The notes under the pieces: generated by a model | Told to the model about the DNA's origin: nothing | Database searches by the model: none | The model's input: only the letters and a program-made list of their open reading frames with translations | Translations under genes and position numbers: made by a program | In this document: piece after piece, positions 2,450-26,572 of the stretch | Layout of the letters: every line of letters starts with the position of its first letter | How positions within the stretch are numbered: the first letter of the stretch is position 1 | NCBI GenBank assembly: GCA_009838845.1 | Contig: VXRD01000108.1 | Location: 1-36,018, forward strand | Source: Gemmatimonadota bacterium | GTDB lineage: Bacteria > Latescibacterota > UBA2968 | Length of the DNA: 36,018 nucleotides | Direction: 5' to 3'

Positions 2450-2503
2450 AAGCGATATTGAAAGGCTTTCACATACAAAATTTTCGCTACTTAACCTGAA
2501 AAA

Positions 2504-2616
2504 ACCGTGAATGGCACCCTTTTTTGTCCATCTATTCACTAAAATTTGGCAATATACCATGAATGATACCCATTTTAACCTGTCTATTCACTAAAATTTG
2601 ACAATATACCGTGAAT
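2504..2616 (+). repeat. Three operator-like boxes at 52-bp spacing upstream of fic
   Basis: The box ACCRTGAAT occurs at 2504-2512, 2556-2564 and 2608-2616, each exactly 52 bp from the next (five helical turns). In the second and third copies the identity extends to 34 bp (2531-2564 and 2583-2616, 32 of 34 identical), starting TCTATTCAC, so each holds ATTCAC and RTGAAT arms separated by 19 bp. The first copy keeps only the right half. The last GTGAAT lies inside the spacer of the fic promoter, which suggests repression by binding there. Confidence 0.7.
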
Positions 2617-2626
2617 AGGGTATTCT
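2598..2626 (+). promoter_or_regulatory. fic promoter, apparently leaderless transcript
   Basis: TTGACA (2598-2603), a 17-bp spacer and TATTCT (2621-2626). The fic ATG begins at 2633, six bases after the -10 box, so transcription should start at or very near the start codon, and no ribosome-binding site is present. The GTGAAT operator half-site (2611-2616) lies in the spacer. Confidence 0.65.
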
Positions 2627-2632
2627 AATGAT

Positions 2633-3517
2633 ATGGCAAGCAGACAACCGATAAAAAACCGCATTCAAGATCTGAAACGAGAGTACGATATCTTGCGTCA
2701 GGGTAAAGAATCGCTATTGTCGATGATTGACGAAGTAGAGATACCCGAGAGCGTGTACAACTCGAATGCGATTGAAAATTCCACCCTCACCCTCAATGAG
2801 ACAGAGAAAATTCTGTTGGAGCAGATGCTATCTCGGAATGTATCTGTGCGGGAAGTCTTTGAAGCGAAAAACCTGGCTCGTGTCACAGAATATAAGCGCA
2901 ACAGAGCCAAAGATAGCGAGCTGAACAAAGATCTGATCCTACTCTTGCATCAGATGCTTATTGGCGGCATTAACGATGACATTGCAGGGCGCTTTCGCCA
3001 GCACGGAGAATACGTGAGGGTGGGCACTCATATTGCGCCAGCACCCGAACATGTGGAACGAATGATGGATAATATCCTCGTCGAGTATTCCAGCGACCTC
3101 GACACCTACTTCCTGGATAAAATTGCCCGATTTCATCTGGATTTCGAGACCATCCATCCCTTTTGCGACGGCAATGGCCGCATGGGACGGGTCATTATAA
3201 ATTTCCAACTCCTGCAACTCGGTCTGCCGCGTCTCATCATCCGCAACTCTGAGAAAGAAACGTACTATCGGGCATTCAGAGACTACGGAGATAACAGAAC
3301 GACCAGGACGATGGAGGGAATTCTATCACTGGCTCTCACAGAGTCGCTGCACAAGCGACTGAGCTATTTGAAGGGAGAAGCAATCATCAAGCTATCGGAT
3401 TATATCAGACAGAATGGGCTTTCGGCACCCGCTGTCACCAACGCCGCCCGCCGCCAGACCATTCCCGCTTTTCGCGAGAAGGGGGTGTGGAAGATCGGCC
3501 AGAAATTCATCTACTGA
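2633..3517 (+). CDS. Fic family AMP-transferase (class II)
   Basis: A 294-residue Fic-domain protein. The catalytic motif is H175-PFCDGNGR-M-G-R186, matching HPFx(D/E)GNGR, which in known family members transfers AMP (or another phosphate-containing group) to a hydroxyl side chain of a target protein. An inhibitory-helix motif S44-NAIE-N49 matches (S/T)xxx(E/D)(G/N) and lies N-terminal to the core, which defines class II Fic proteins that hold themselves inactive until the helix moves. The flap region around residues 124-134 (HGEYVRVGTHI) is typical. The C-terminal ~60 residues look like a winged-helix DNA-binding segment, so autoregulation through the 52-bp spaced boxes upstream is plausible. 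No separate antitoxin gene adjoins it, in line with the internal inhibitory motif. The gene converges with the HNH nuclease gene. The ATG is set by the promoter rather than by a ribosome site. Confidence 0.9.
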   Translation: MASRQPIKNRIQDLKREYDILRQGKESLLSMIDEVEIPESVYNSNAIENSTLTLNETEKILLEQMLSRNVSVREVFEAKNLARVTEYKRNRAKDSELNKDLILLLHQMLIGGINDDIAGRFRQHGEYVRVGTHIAPAPEHVERMMDNILVEYSSDLDTYFLDKIARFHLDFETIHPFCDGNGRMGRVIINFQLLQLGLPRLIIRNSEKETYYRAFRDYGDNRTTRTMEGILSLALTESLHKRLSYLKGEAIIKLSDYIRQNGLSAPAVTNAARRQTIPAFREKGVWKIGQKFIY

Positions 3518-3590: not shown

Positions 3591-4367
3591 TCAGCGGTTT
3601 CCCATGAATATATTTTCACGGTGATATGCAAGAAAGTCCTCCCGTGGCTGAAACTTATCTGGCAACGCTATCGTTTTTCCATCATAACTTCTCAGAGCAG
3701 TCACAAAAAATTTATTTCTCACATTAAATACCTGTGGTGATACTCGAACAGTCATATTATGATTTATCGTGATCATTCCGCGATCAAACGCCTTGTCGTG
3801 AAGTATTGATAAGGCTAAGCCATTCCTTGGGTTGAGTCTATTCGTCCGATCATCACGCCACGGCACGATATGACTGGCTACCAAGAGTTCCGGAATGGCA
3901 AGTTCAGTGATACAGCATCTATACATATAAGCACTCAGCACCGATTTTCTAAAAAATTTCTGACCAATCCGTGTTTTGGTTGGCACAATCCTATCCTGAC
4001 CAGTGTAATCCTGGTATTCAGATGCACTTTCATTTTCCGCAATGTACGACTCGCTACCTTGCAGAATAGAATTGATAGCTCCTTCTACCTCTGTTGCAAA
4101 ATTATTGCAATCATTTTGCATTTCTTGCCACATTTCTCTATCCGCCTTAGATACACTCGATAACCCTATGCGACCAGTCGAAGTTATCTCTGGATCAAGG
4201 CTCGCTATATTCGATAATTTCATAGCCAGTGCAGACGGCGTTCTGCCAATAAGTTTAGAGAATTTAATGATTTCTGGATTTCCTGCATGGAACTGGCCAA
4301 ATGGTATTTGATCGTACAGCCCAAATGCTACAAGCAACTCTTGTCGCGTCCATCTTCTATTTGACAT
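3591..4367 (-). CDS. HNH endonuclease (HNH_2 type), restriction-like
   Basis: A 258-residue protein. The C-terminal part carries a beta-beta-alpha-metal HNH nuclease: CCITELAIPELLVASH166, then IVPW, NPRNG (179-183) and LSILHDKAFDRG (187-198). This is the HNH_2 pattern seen in restriction-like nucleases. H166, N182 and H190 are likely active-site or metal residues. The first ~65 residues (RWTRQELLVAF...GRTPSALAMKLSNIASLDP) form a helical domain common in this group and possibly DNA-binding. It is the third gene of a minus-strand set: ATPase, Toprim protein, then this gene 25 bp downstream of the Toprim stop. The ribosome site (GAGA) is weak. Expected function is DNA cleavage in the cytoplasm, perhaps of foreign or modified DNA. 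Whether it works with the ATPase/Toprim pair is inferred only from its position. Confidence 0.85.
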   Translation of the reverse strand: MSNRRWTRQELLVAFGLYDQIPFGQFHAGNPEIIKFSKLIGRTPSALAMKLSNIASLDPEITSTGRIGLSSVSKADREMWQEMQNDCNNFATEVEGAINSILQGSESYIAENESASEYQDYTGQDRIVPTKTRIGQKFFRKSVLSAYMYRCCITELAIPELLVASHIVPWRDDRTNRLNPRNGLALSILHDKAFDRGMITINHNMTVRVSPQVFNVRNKFFVTALRSYDGKTIALPDKFQPREDFLAYHRENIFMGNR

Positions 4368-4392
4368 AGCTATCTCTGTGACTTGCTTAATT

Positions 4393-5073
4393 CTACTTGA
4401 ACAGTTTTATAAGCCAATCAACAAAGTCCTGGCAGAGAGGACCATCAACTTTCAAATCATGCGAGAGAATGGCTGAACCCATCTGCTTGGGATCTCTTCT
4501 GGCCGCCAGCCAGGCATAGAGCTTGGCTCTCAGCATCTTCTTCTCAGTAAATTTTCTATTATCTGTCGGAATCCCGTCAATGTATTGCTGAGACAAAGGC
4601 CATACAGGATCGCCGTCGGGAATCATTTTCACAACGAAATCCTCAAGTTCGCCACTTGACTCATTATCGGGCATCAGCCAGATACCGACGCGGGGCTTAC
4701 CTTCAATAATTGTCCCGGCTGATTCAGGAAACTGTGGAAATTGAATTTTCGCCATTCGAAGTCTATATCCTACAGCGTCCCAACGTGACCTCAGATTATC
4801 ATTTGCATCTACGAGAATACCAACGGCTTGCCGTCCCGAAACCTTGATTTCGACGTTAATGGACTCAAGCAGTTGCTCAACATTAACCCTATTTAGAATA
4901 TCAATGGTCTGCCATTCAGAAGATTCGCTTTCTGGACTACGGAATTCAAGCCGGTCATCATCATCGTCCACAATTTGAAAATCTGGGTAACGATTGCAAA
5001 GGCGACGAACAACATGCTTATCGCTCTCCCCTTCGACTAAAAGGACGCGATTCGATGTATTTTGATTAGCCAT
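4393..5073 (-). CDS. Toprim-like protein (DUF3226)
   Basis: A 226-residue protein with the acidic motifs of a Toprim fold: LLVEGESDK (E14, D18), ILVDAND (D89, D92) and WLMPDN (D136), followed by GELEDF (E142-F146) as in the DUF3226/DUF4435 group. Toprim domains of this kind bind Mg2+ and in OLD-type nucleases cleave nucleic acid. The start is three bases after the stop of the ATPase gene and its ribosome site (AGGTGA) lies inside the end of that gene, so the two are translationally coupled. This ATPase plus stand-alone Toprim layout matches the PARIS anti-phage system in principle (AriA ATPase with AriB, a DUF4435 Toprim effector). Here the Toprim belongs to the related DUF3226 family, so I call it PARIS-like rather than PARIS. 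Loss of the acidic residues would argue against nuclease activity, but they are present. Confidence 0.8.
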   Translation of the reverse strand: MANQNTSNRVLLVEGESDKHVVRRLCNRYPDFQIVDDDDDRLEFRSPESESSEWQTIDILNRVNVEQLLESINVEIKVSGRQAVGILVDANDNLRSRWDAVGYRLRMAKIQFPQFPESAGTIIEGKPRVGIWLMPDNESSGELEDFVVKMIPDGDPVWPLSQQYIDGIPTDNRKFTEKKMLRAKLYAWLAARRDPKQMGSAILSHDLKVDGPLCQDFVDWLIKLFK

Positions 5074-5076
5074 AAC

Positions 5077-6159
5077 CTATCTCACCTCAATGCTTTGTTC
5101 GCCCGCGATTCGGAGCTCTTCCTCGGAATATTCTACAACACGCATTTGTTCACCATCTCGCTCAAGGCGAACAAGAATTCCGTCCACTTCCTCTAAGCCC
5201 ACTGCCGCTTGTGCAAAACCGACCACGCAATCCCAACTATGGGTTGTAGCGAAAACCTGCACATTGTTCTCGACGGCTGTCGTCATCACCATCTTCCAGA
5301 AATCGCGCTGTACGGAATGATGAATACCGTTTTCTGCTTCGTCGATAACCAGAAAACCATCCTGGCTATTGGCAAGTGCCAAAGCAACGCCGAACAAGCG
5401 CACCGCACCGTCACCAAGGCTTTTCAAAGAAACTGGACTTTCTTGCCCTTTAAACCCCACAATTGCTCGCCGACCAGAACGGCCAGAAGATCTTTCATCA
5501 CCAATTACAACAACACGCTCTACTTCATTGCCATAAATCAGCCGCAGCGCGTGTATTGCCCGTGCTTCACCGTCTCTAAGGGCTACGCTATACCAGAATC
5601 GAGCTATATCATCATCGCTCAGCAAACTCGGCCCCACAGACACACATCTAATTTCAGATGGTCGTTCGGATTCGTCAGCCTGCGGTCTGCGATAGAGGGG
5701 GTGACGACGCATACTCGAGAAGAAAGGCATAGAAATCTCTGGCTTCGTACCCTGGAATCCAATTTTGATTAGGGGTACACCATTTTTCAAGCCCGGCTCA
5801 AACTCAATGCTAAGTTGCTGCGCCTCGCTATTCGGGCCTATGGATATGCGAGAATCTAATTTGGGATGCCGACCATTGAAGAGAGCCTCAAAATCGGGTA
5901 TAGTCCTCTCATCGCCATCTTCATCAACAATAACAGTAAGCTCTTCCCTATTTCGCAATATGCTCCAGAGCACGGGGAGGTTACCTCGTGCAGCATAGAT
6001 GCGAACAGCATCAAGCAAAGTGGTCTTGCCAACCCCGTTCTTTCCAGCAATCAGCGTCACACGCCCCAGCCGCGAGATCGAAAGGTCTTCAATTCCCTGA
6101 AAGCCTTTAATCGATAGGTTGGGAAGATGGAGTCCCTCGTTGGATAATTTTGCACACAT
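5077..6159 (-). CDS. OLD/ABC-type AAA ATPase of a PARIS-like pair
   Basis: A 360-residue ATPase of the SMC/ABC-like AAA_15/AAA_21 group. Walker A is G39-KNGVGKT-T47, directly after a first strand NLSIKGFQGIEDLSI typical of RecF/OLD heads. A signature-like SLKSLGDG lies at 244-251, Walker B FLVIDEAENGIHH at 269-281 (D273, E274) and a switch histidine in TTHSWD at H307. The protein lacks a fused Toprim domain, which is supplied by the next gene. Proteins of this type dimerise on ATP and act as sensors or scaffolds for an effector nuclease. The ATG at 6159 follows GGAGGAG. It is first in the minus-strand set with the Toprim and HNH genes. An 18-bp inverted repeat lies about 40-60 bp upstream and could control the operon. 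Confidence 0.85.
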   Translation of the reverse strand: MCAKLSNEGLHLPNLSIKGFQGIEDLSISRLGRVTLIAGKNGVGKTTLLDAVRIYAARGNLPVLWSILRNREELTVIVDEDGDERTIPDFEALFNGRHPKLDSRISIGPNSEAQQLSIEFEPGLKNGVPLIKIGFQGTKPEISMPFFSSMRRHPLYRRPQADESERPSEIRCVSVGPSLLSDDDIARFWYSVALRDGEARAIHALRLIYGNEVERVVVIGDERSSGRSGRRAIVGFKGQESPVSLKSLGDGAVRLFGVALALANSQDGFLVIDEAENGIHHSVQRDFWKMVMTTAVENNVQVFATTHSWDCVVGFAQAAVGLEEVDGILVRLERDGEQMRVVEYSEEELRIAGEQSIEVR

Positions 6160-25186: not shown

Positions 25187-26572
25187 TTATATATGAATCG
25201 CCTCATCCTCCACATTCAACGCAGCCTCTTTCAGTGCCTCTGGAAGTGTAGGATGCGCGTGCATCGTTCGCGCGATATCCTCTGCACTCGCGGAAAATTC
25301 CATTGCCAGAACCCCCTCGGCGAGCATATCGGACGCGCGTGCGGCCAAAATGTGAATACCCAACACGCGATCCGTCTTTTCATGTGCAATAATCTTCACC
25401 TGTCCATCCACCGCCTGTAGCGTATGCGCGCGACCATTGGCAGCTATTGGAAACTTGCCCACCTTATAGGGAATGCCATCGGCCACAACCTGCTCCTCTG
25501 TCAGCCCCACCGATGCCAGTTCTGGATGTGTGTACACCACATTGGGAATCGCGCCATAATTCACATGCCCCGCCTTTCCCGCCATACATTCCACCGCAGC
25601 CACACCCTCTTCCTCTGCCTTGTGCGCCAGCATCGGACCGGGAATCACATCGCCAATTGCATAGACACCGGGCAAATTTGTCTCAAATACGTCATCGACC
25701 AGAATGCGTCCCTGGTCATCCATCTCCAACCCCACATCTTCGCCACCCAGCCCATCGGTATTTGGCCTTCGCCCAACAGCGACCAACAATCGGTCACACG
25801 TCTCAGAAGTCGTCTCATCGCCCTGTGCGAGCGTCACCATCACCTTCCCATCGCGAACCTCCGCCGACTCCGCGCGCGTATCAAACGAAAACTTCAGCCC
25901 CTGCTTCTCCAGCACCTTCTGCAAACCGAGAGACAATTCGCGGTCCATCGTCGGCGTCACCCCATCGAGAAATTCAACCACATGCACCTCTGCACCCAGG
26001 CGATGCCACACCGACCCCAACTCGAGACCGATCGCACCTGCGCCAATAACAATCATCTTCCCGGGCACCTTATCCAGCGACAACGCCTCGGTAGAACTGA
26101 TCACATACTCGCCATCATAAGGCAAATTGGGCAACTCAATCGCAGAACTGCCCGTAGCGATCAAAATGCGCTCTGCCGAATAAACATCTCCCCCAACATC
26201 GACCTTGCCATCGCCGGCCAACCGCCCCAGCCCCGAAATATGCGTCACATTATTCTTGCGAAACAGGCCGCGAATACCGCCCGTCATCCTTCGCACAATA
26301 CTGGACTTGCGCTTCATCATACCCTTCAAATCCAGTTCCACACCACCGGTCTTTACACCGTGAATACCCAACGAAGACTCCGCCTGGTGAAACAACTCAC
26401 TCGACTCCAAAAGGGCTTTACTCGGAATACAGCCCACATTCAGACATGTACCTCCCAATCCCTGTTTCTCAACACATGCCACGCGCATGCCCAATTGCGC
26501 CGCGCGAATCGCCGCGACATACCCTCCCGGTCCAGCACCAATAACAATGAGATCGAATGTATTATCTGCCAC
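25187..26572 (-). CDS. lpdA: Dihydrolipoyl dehydrogenase (E3)
   Basis: A 461-residue flavoprotein that reoxidises dihydrolipoyl groups with NAD+. The FAD-binding loop is DLIVIGAGPGGYVAA, the redox disulfide is GGTC43LNVGC48IPSK, the NAD-binding loop is IVIGAGAIGLELGS, a second FAD contact is GVYAIGDV, and the catalytic H...E dyad is HAHPTLPEAL near the C-terminus. The start is GTG 26572 with GAGGAG six bases upstream; a longer frame lacks a site. It is third in the sucA-sucB-lpd operon and serves as E3 of the 2-oxoglutarate (and possibly pyruvate) dehydrogenase complex. It lies 97 bp after sucB, a gap that holds a tandem repeat. Confidence 0.95.
   Translation of the reverse strand: MADNTFDLIVIGAGPGGYVAAIRAAQLGMRVACVEKQGLGGTCLNVGCIPSKALLESSELFHQAESSLGIHGVKTGGVELDLKGMMKRKSSIVRRMTGGIRGLFRKNNVTHISGLGRLAGDGKVDVGGDVYSAERILIATGSSAIELPNLPYDGEYVISSTEALSLDKVPGKMIVIGAGAIGLELGSVWHRLGAEVHVVEFLDGVTPTMDRELSLGLQKVLEKQGLKFSFDTRAESAEVRDGKVMVTLAQGDETTSETCDRLLVAVGRRPNTDGLGGEDVGLEMDDQGRILVDDVFETNLPGVYAIGDVIPGPMLAHKAEEEGVAAVECMAGKAGHVNYGAIPNVVYTHPELASVGLTEEQVVADGIPYKVGKFPIAANGRAHTLQAVDGQVKIIAHEKTDRVLGIHILAARASDMLAEGVLAMEFSASAEDIARTMHAHPTLPEALKEAALNVEDEAIHI

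Follow-up and report, generated by a model that had tools for sequence, protein, structure and literature searches.

A conserved row of alternating half-sites at the promoter of an apparently leaderless fic gene, the probable operator of a Fic protein with a predicted C-terminal helix-turn-helix

Introduction

CccR, a Fic protein of Yersinia pseudotuberculosis, represses its own gene, as established by footprinting, EMSA, ITC and reporter assays (PMC9755527; PDB 7XUX). It shares an N-terminal DUF4172 domain with SoFic and with CbFic2 of Coxiella burnetii, for which DNA binding has been proposed to switch the enzyme to a dimeric deAMPylase (PMC10628234). In E. coli, the Sofic gene is followed by an antitoxin gene (PMC12249575).

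The fic gene described here lies in the window, the whole 36,018-nucleotide stretch of DNA that was analysed. Its product, like CccR, joins a Fic domain to a C-terminal helix-turn-helix (HTH; here predicted, residues 251–289, pLDDT about 95), and both genes have widely spaced inverted repeats at their own promoters near the −35 and −10 elements; those of its own gene are bound by CccR (PMC9755527). The sequence match between the two proteins is, however, confined to the Fic domain (residues 96–197, E 2.4e-9), and CccR is longer, at 380 aa against 294. Whereas the CccR operator is a single inverted pair, AGATAATCAT-N26-ATGATAATCT, the fic family described here has at least three GTNAAW half-sites whose orientation alternates, which in the window are GTGAAT half-sites separated by N19 and N20/21. 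CccR is also a T6SS effector, whereas the window Fic carries no pointer to secretion.

CbFic2 resembles the window Fic in being a class II enzyme (inhibitory motif TSAIEG) that ends in a winged HTH, but differs in its DUF4172 N-terminus, in the DeoR type of its winged HTH, in having no known specific operator, and in its described target, host histone H3 (PMC10628234); a search of the window Fic for DUF4172 gave no match even at E values up to 10. Among solved structures, FICD/HYPE (4u04, 6i7g), which shares the class II inhibitory motif, is nearest to the Fic domain both in sequence (E 1e-20, residues 23–216) and in fold. PADLOC matches to the defence-candidate models PDC-S04 (4.9e-37) and SoFic (2.2e-28) involve the Fic domain alone, and the NCBIfam SoFic score is 36 against a cut-off of 550; the antitoxin gene downstream of E. 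coli Sofic has no conserved counterpart at fic here. A survey of the open-access literature found neither this fic family nor its operator described.

Collection of homologues

Homologues of the 294-aa Fic were collected by a genome-contig search, which gave 80 loci at 60–97% identity, and from the whole genomes of relatives both close and remote, where identity fell to about 48%. We then read the DNA upstream of fic at 95 loci and scanned its last 130 bp for two identical GTNAA[A/T] half-sites, with a first-order Markov (shuffled) control.

The array upstream of fic

A scan of the window finds the box ACCRTGAAT on the + strand at 2504, 2556 and 2608, at a spacing of exactly 52 bp, as an earlier sequence-only reading had described; the 36-kb window contains one further copy, at 26357, with 0.72 expected by chance. 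Between each pair of direct boxes lies an inverted copy, ATTCAC, at 2534 and 2586, and the array is a row of five half-sites, > < > < >, with steps of 27, 25, 27 and 25 bp (Table 1). The 52-bp direct repeat is the sum of two alternating steps. The description of three direct boxes in phase at exactly 52 bp is thus accurate for the window, but the sites themselves are alternating inverted half-sites, and the 52-bp phase follows from their steps. Homologues place boxes of the same orientation either 51 or 52 bp apart, so an exact 52 bp is not what has been conserved. A sixth half-site, counted at 2482 by a lenient scan, was rejected on inspection by eye.

Other details of the earlier reading stand as given: the downstream two units share 32 of 34 bases, the middle unit has TTGGCA at the −35-like position and ATGAAT as its box, and the promoter is TTGACA-N17-TATTCT with the last box inside its spacer. 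In a weighted logo, the first box is directly preceded by an AAAA tract and the last by the AAAA of TTGACAAAAA.

Table 1. Positions of the putative operator, promoter and protein features at the fic locus (window coordinates)
Feature	Position	Strand	Remarks
Two copies of a 52-bp operator/promoter-like unit	2499..2602	+	77% identical
Half-site 1, GTGAAT	2507..2512	+	
Half-site 2, ATTCAC, inverted	2534..2539	-	27 bp from half-site 1
Half-site 3, ATGAAT, degenerate	2559..2564	+	GTGAAT in L034, L037
Half-site 4, ATTCAC, inverted	2586..2591	-	immediately 5' of −35; invariant in genus
-35 hexamer, TTGACA	2598..2603	+	exact in 66/94 homologues
Half-site 5, GTGAAT	2611..2616	+	inside −35/−10 spacer; 25 bp from half-site 4
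-10 hexamer, TATTCT	2621..2626	+	17-bp spacer; 6 nt to ATG 2633
fic, 294 aa, class II Fic	2633..3517	+	HPFCDGNGRMGR, residues 175–186; inhibitory motif SNAIEN, 44–49
Predicted C-terminal winged HTH, residues 251–289	3383..3499	+	predicted recognition helix 265–273, wing 279–289
Codons of residues 265–266 (Ala-Pro)	3425..3430	+	columns best tracking third base of box

Conservation of the half-sites and promoter

The sequence-only reading had made conservation of the boxes upstream of fic orthologues a test of its proposal, and across the 95 loci this conservation is strong. Half-sites in diverging order (< >) stand 25 bp apart in 65 of the 95 and 24 bp apart in seven, with almost no other distance. 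In converging order (> <) they are separated by 26 bp in 41 loci and 27 bp in 44, and same-orientation pairs by 51 bp (38 loci) or 52 bp (23 loci); the control gives an expectation of about 0.1 of 95 loci. Alternating sites, with TTGACA within the last inverted pair and a −10 element just 3' of it, are found at nearly all of the 95 fic loci, the constant spacing among homologues being the 25 bp of the inverted pair around the −35 element. The locus titles span more than 12 phyla, including Latescibacterota, Nitrospirota, Thermodesulfobacteriota, Gemmatimonadota, Pseudomonadota, Elusimicrobiota, Spirochaetota, Nitrospinota, Lentisphaerota, Omnitrophota, several Patescibacteria groups and others, with the proviso that nearly all loci are from MAGs and individual phylum assignments may be wrong.

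Three half-sites is the commonest form (56 of 94 loci), and most other loci have four to six. The extra 52-bp upstream unit is found mainly in the genus of the window, in the window itself and in L034, L036 and L037, of which L036 has three TTGACA-like units; a locus of Elusimicrobiota, L063, also has five half-sites. Within the genus, the inner copy of the extra unit varies (ATGAAT, GTGAAT, ATGAAC) and the promoter-proximal pair is invariant. Across these loci, the 52-bp duplication looks like an addition made at the level of the genus to an operator of one unit, which fits the earlier suggestion of a unit that was duplicated and has since decayed, its −35 and box both being degenerate.

The spacer is 17 bp long in 61 of 94 loci. 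Between the −10 hexamer and the start codon there are 6–9 nt in 65 of 94 homologues, which supports the leaderless start proposed for the window, and 22–27 nt in a second class of 21; Shine-Dalgarno-like words occur in only six of the 94. From these distances we infer that a leaderless fic message is the rule across homologues. Loci of the longer-leader class often carry one more inverted half-site, which keeps the regular step and lies just 5' of the start codon (L069, L076, L079, L081, L083, L086, L088 and L096).

The Fic protein and its predicted winged helix

The protein matches Pfam PF02661 (E 1.1e-20) and carries HPFCDGNGRMGR at the active-site motif HPFx[D/E]GNGRxxR, with H175, P176, D179–R183 and R186 invariant in 61 sequences. 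The inhibitory motif [S/T]xxxE[G/N] is present N-terminal to the Fic core, its S44 being invariant and its E48 and N49 conserved in at least 90%. The catalytic and inhibitory motifs, both intact, mark the protein as a class II Fic enzyme nearest to FICD.

An AlphaFold2 model (mean pLDDT 82.8, and near 95 over the last 50 residues) consists, at its C-terminus, of a strand (251–253), two helices (254–261 and 265–273) and two further strands (279–282 and 285–289), a winged HTH that was reproduced when the C-terminal domain was modelled alone. The winged-helix-like C-terminus that had been suspected from the sequence is thus predicted with high confidence. The predicted recognition helix starts exactly at residue 265, residues 265–266 forming its first turn. 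In a Foldseek search with the HTH domain, DNA complexes of RacA, NmlR and BldC were among the leading matches, with a TM of about 0.6 but E values of 0.6–1, which are not significant, and the MerR-type likeness of the model is accordingly a resemblance, carrying no assignment.

Co-variation between box and predicted recognition helix

The boxes occur in three alleles, GTGAAT, GTTAAT (in Smithella and other lineages) and GTGAAA (in a divergent clade), with nearly unchanged spacing. Three recognisable boxes were present in 88 of 95 loci, and in 78 of these 88 the third base is common to all three; the boxes therefore change in concert. When 54 G-type proteins were compared with 17 T-type proteins, residues 265 and 266 were the most discriminating of all 294 columns, and in an enlarged, weighted set they again took the top two places, with mutual information of 0.745 and 0.649 against 0.48 for the next column. 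Among divergence-matched pairs, 265/266 differ in 96–100% of G/T pairs versus 28–55% of same-type pairs, and lie within the top three columns in every identity band (z 4.2–5.2).

Ala-Pro or Ala-Ser accompanies GTGAAT, and Ile, Val, Leu or Phe followed by Asn or His accompanies most GTTAAT boxes. The cleanest case is a well-supported clade of five rows, in which L069 and L077 (SAPA, GTGAAT) stand against L074, L082 and L085 (SVHA, GTTAAT). Exceptions are L104, L105 and L113, where G boxes go with residues that differ in part, and L123 (Gly-Gln) and L125 (Ser-Ser), which have T boxes. The G-to-T switch gives five independent contrasts on the best tree and two on strongly supported branches, numbers that do not suffice for a sign test; the column ranking is the stronger part of the evidence for co-variation. 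That Fic itself binds the boxes, as had been proposed, is well supported by this co-variation of its predicted recognition helix with the box sequence.

Proteins with G boxes also differ from those with T boxes at residue 42 (window 2756–2758), a Tyr/Phe position beside the inhibitory motif (0.87 versus 0.02 in divergence-matched pairs); the difference is likely a clade effect, or possibly a functional link. The divergent clade (L118, L119, L121 and L127–L136, about 47–53% identity) has the recognition helix SHSNLIN and an EAFL wing, and at the same loci the boxes are mostly GTGAAA and the inner pair is often 24 bp apart. This GTGAAA clade appears as a third specificity of the fic operator system.

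Genomic specificity and neighbourhood

Within the genome (5.75 Mb), fic is the only place with GTGAAT-N20/21-ATTCAC. ATTCAC-N18–20-GTGAAT has one more site (N19), which lies within a coding frame and is at chance level, and a regulon with other targets was rejected on this pattern. The paralogous Fic genes of the same genome (L139–L141) have other C-termini, and no such boxes were seen upstream of them. The genome holds no second copy of the 52-bp unit, against a dispersed repeat or mobile-element end. An origin as a plasmid or phage gene was also set aside, the searches returning no plasmid matches at 1e-40, one phage Fic of 29.5% identity and one partial viral contig.

Among about 90 loci, with ORFs of at least 80 aa considered, fic has no conserved neighbour, recurrent groups numbering 2–4 loci and the largest 4, and no conserved adjacent antitoxin gene of the type II toxin-antitoxin kind (phd-doc, FicTA). 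Since the pattern is found only at fic and the neighbours are not conserved, fic and its operator look like a self-contained unit.

In the window, the genes directly 3' of fic (3591–6159, − strand) encode an HNH protein, which fits the PADLOC HNH model at E 3e-120, as well as a DUF3226 and AAA_15 ATPase pair that matches the candidate defence pair PDC-M38A/B and is also AbiLi-like; together they form a small defence-like cluster. On the 5' side, a DUF5131 gene (1670–2449, + strand) matches the PADLOC candidate models PDC-M41B and PDC-M30B (E about 1e-102).

Discussion

The explanation that best accounts for these observations, to which we give a probability of roughly 0.83, is that Fic binds its own operator via the C-terminal HTH and represses its own leaderless promoter. 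Fic protomers would bind GTGAAT half-sites through the MerR-like winged HTH, and a Fic dimer probably spans ATTCAC-N19-GTGAAT, the inverted pair on either side of the −35 element, the strict 25-bp diverging pair being the best candidate site for one dimer. The further half-sites of the row would be occupied by neighbouring protomers, which may touch one another, as the less strictly spaced converging pair (26/27 bp) suggests; binding may be cooperative. A bound dimer would keep RNA polymerase off the near-consensus promoter, given that its two half-sites lie just 5' of the −35 and within the 17-bp spacer. The fic mRNA, starting at or beside the ATG, would then be made only while free Fic is scarce. 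Binding to DNA may in addition keep Fic dimeric and non-AMPylating, by analogy with other Fic proteins.

Most transcription factors work in trans, and a different host-encoded regulator could bind the boxes, with Fic merely its target. We consider this improbable: the same architecture accompanies fic through more than 12 phyla without a conserved neighbour, the pattern is absent elsewhere in the genome save for the chance-like site inside a coding frame, and the box letters track residues 265–266 in Fic's own HTH. If Fic does bind the boxes, it might activate or tune the promoter in the manner of MerR, whose domains its HTH resembles. MerR activators bind within the −35/−10 spacer, but the promoters that they activate have overlong spacers of 19–20 bp, whereas no activator seems needed here, because the spacer is 17 bp in most loci and the −35 is exact in 66 of 94. 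Related CccR, moreover, represses. Repression is preferred to activation on account of where the boxes lie and of how good the 17-bp promoter is, and activation is quite improbable.

Tandem 52-bp units with inverted repeats, at a gene whose presence across distant phyla suggests horizontal transfer, could also be read as acting in RNA or as a recombination or mobile-element end, with no protein operator. That seems extremely improbable, given that in most loci every half-site lies 5' of the inferred start and would not be transcribed from this promoter, that a second genomic copy of the unit is absent, and that the letters of the half-sites vary together with the Fic HTH.

Autorepression by Fic could be part of a wider scheme, which we regard as speculative and on balance unlikely. 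Here, a one-gene enzyme-regulator family would have spread with its operator as a unit across many phyla; a row of Fic protomers on alternating half-sites, with dyads of two sorts (25 and 26/27 bp), would both silence the gene and hold Fic inactive or deAMPylating, release from DNA would be the activating step, and three box/helix specificities, GTGAAT, GTTAAT and GTGAAA, would coexist.

As proposed, the system would be a variant of known Fic-HTH autorepression, with CccR as the demonstrated precedent and with another Fic subtype and operator. Conservation of the operator would let both the binding geometry and the recognition code be read from sequence alone, and offers testable specificity swaps between residues 265–266 and the third base of the box. 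It also provides a defined DNA ligand for asking whether DNA binding switches AMPylation, CbFic2 being without a known specific site. Fic enzymes are usually regarded as restrained by an antitoxin or an inhibitory helix, and here a large and widespread Fic family seems to hold its own transcriptional brake within the same polypeptide.
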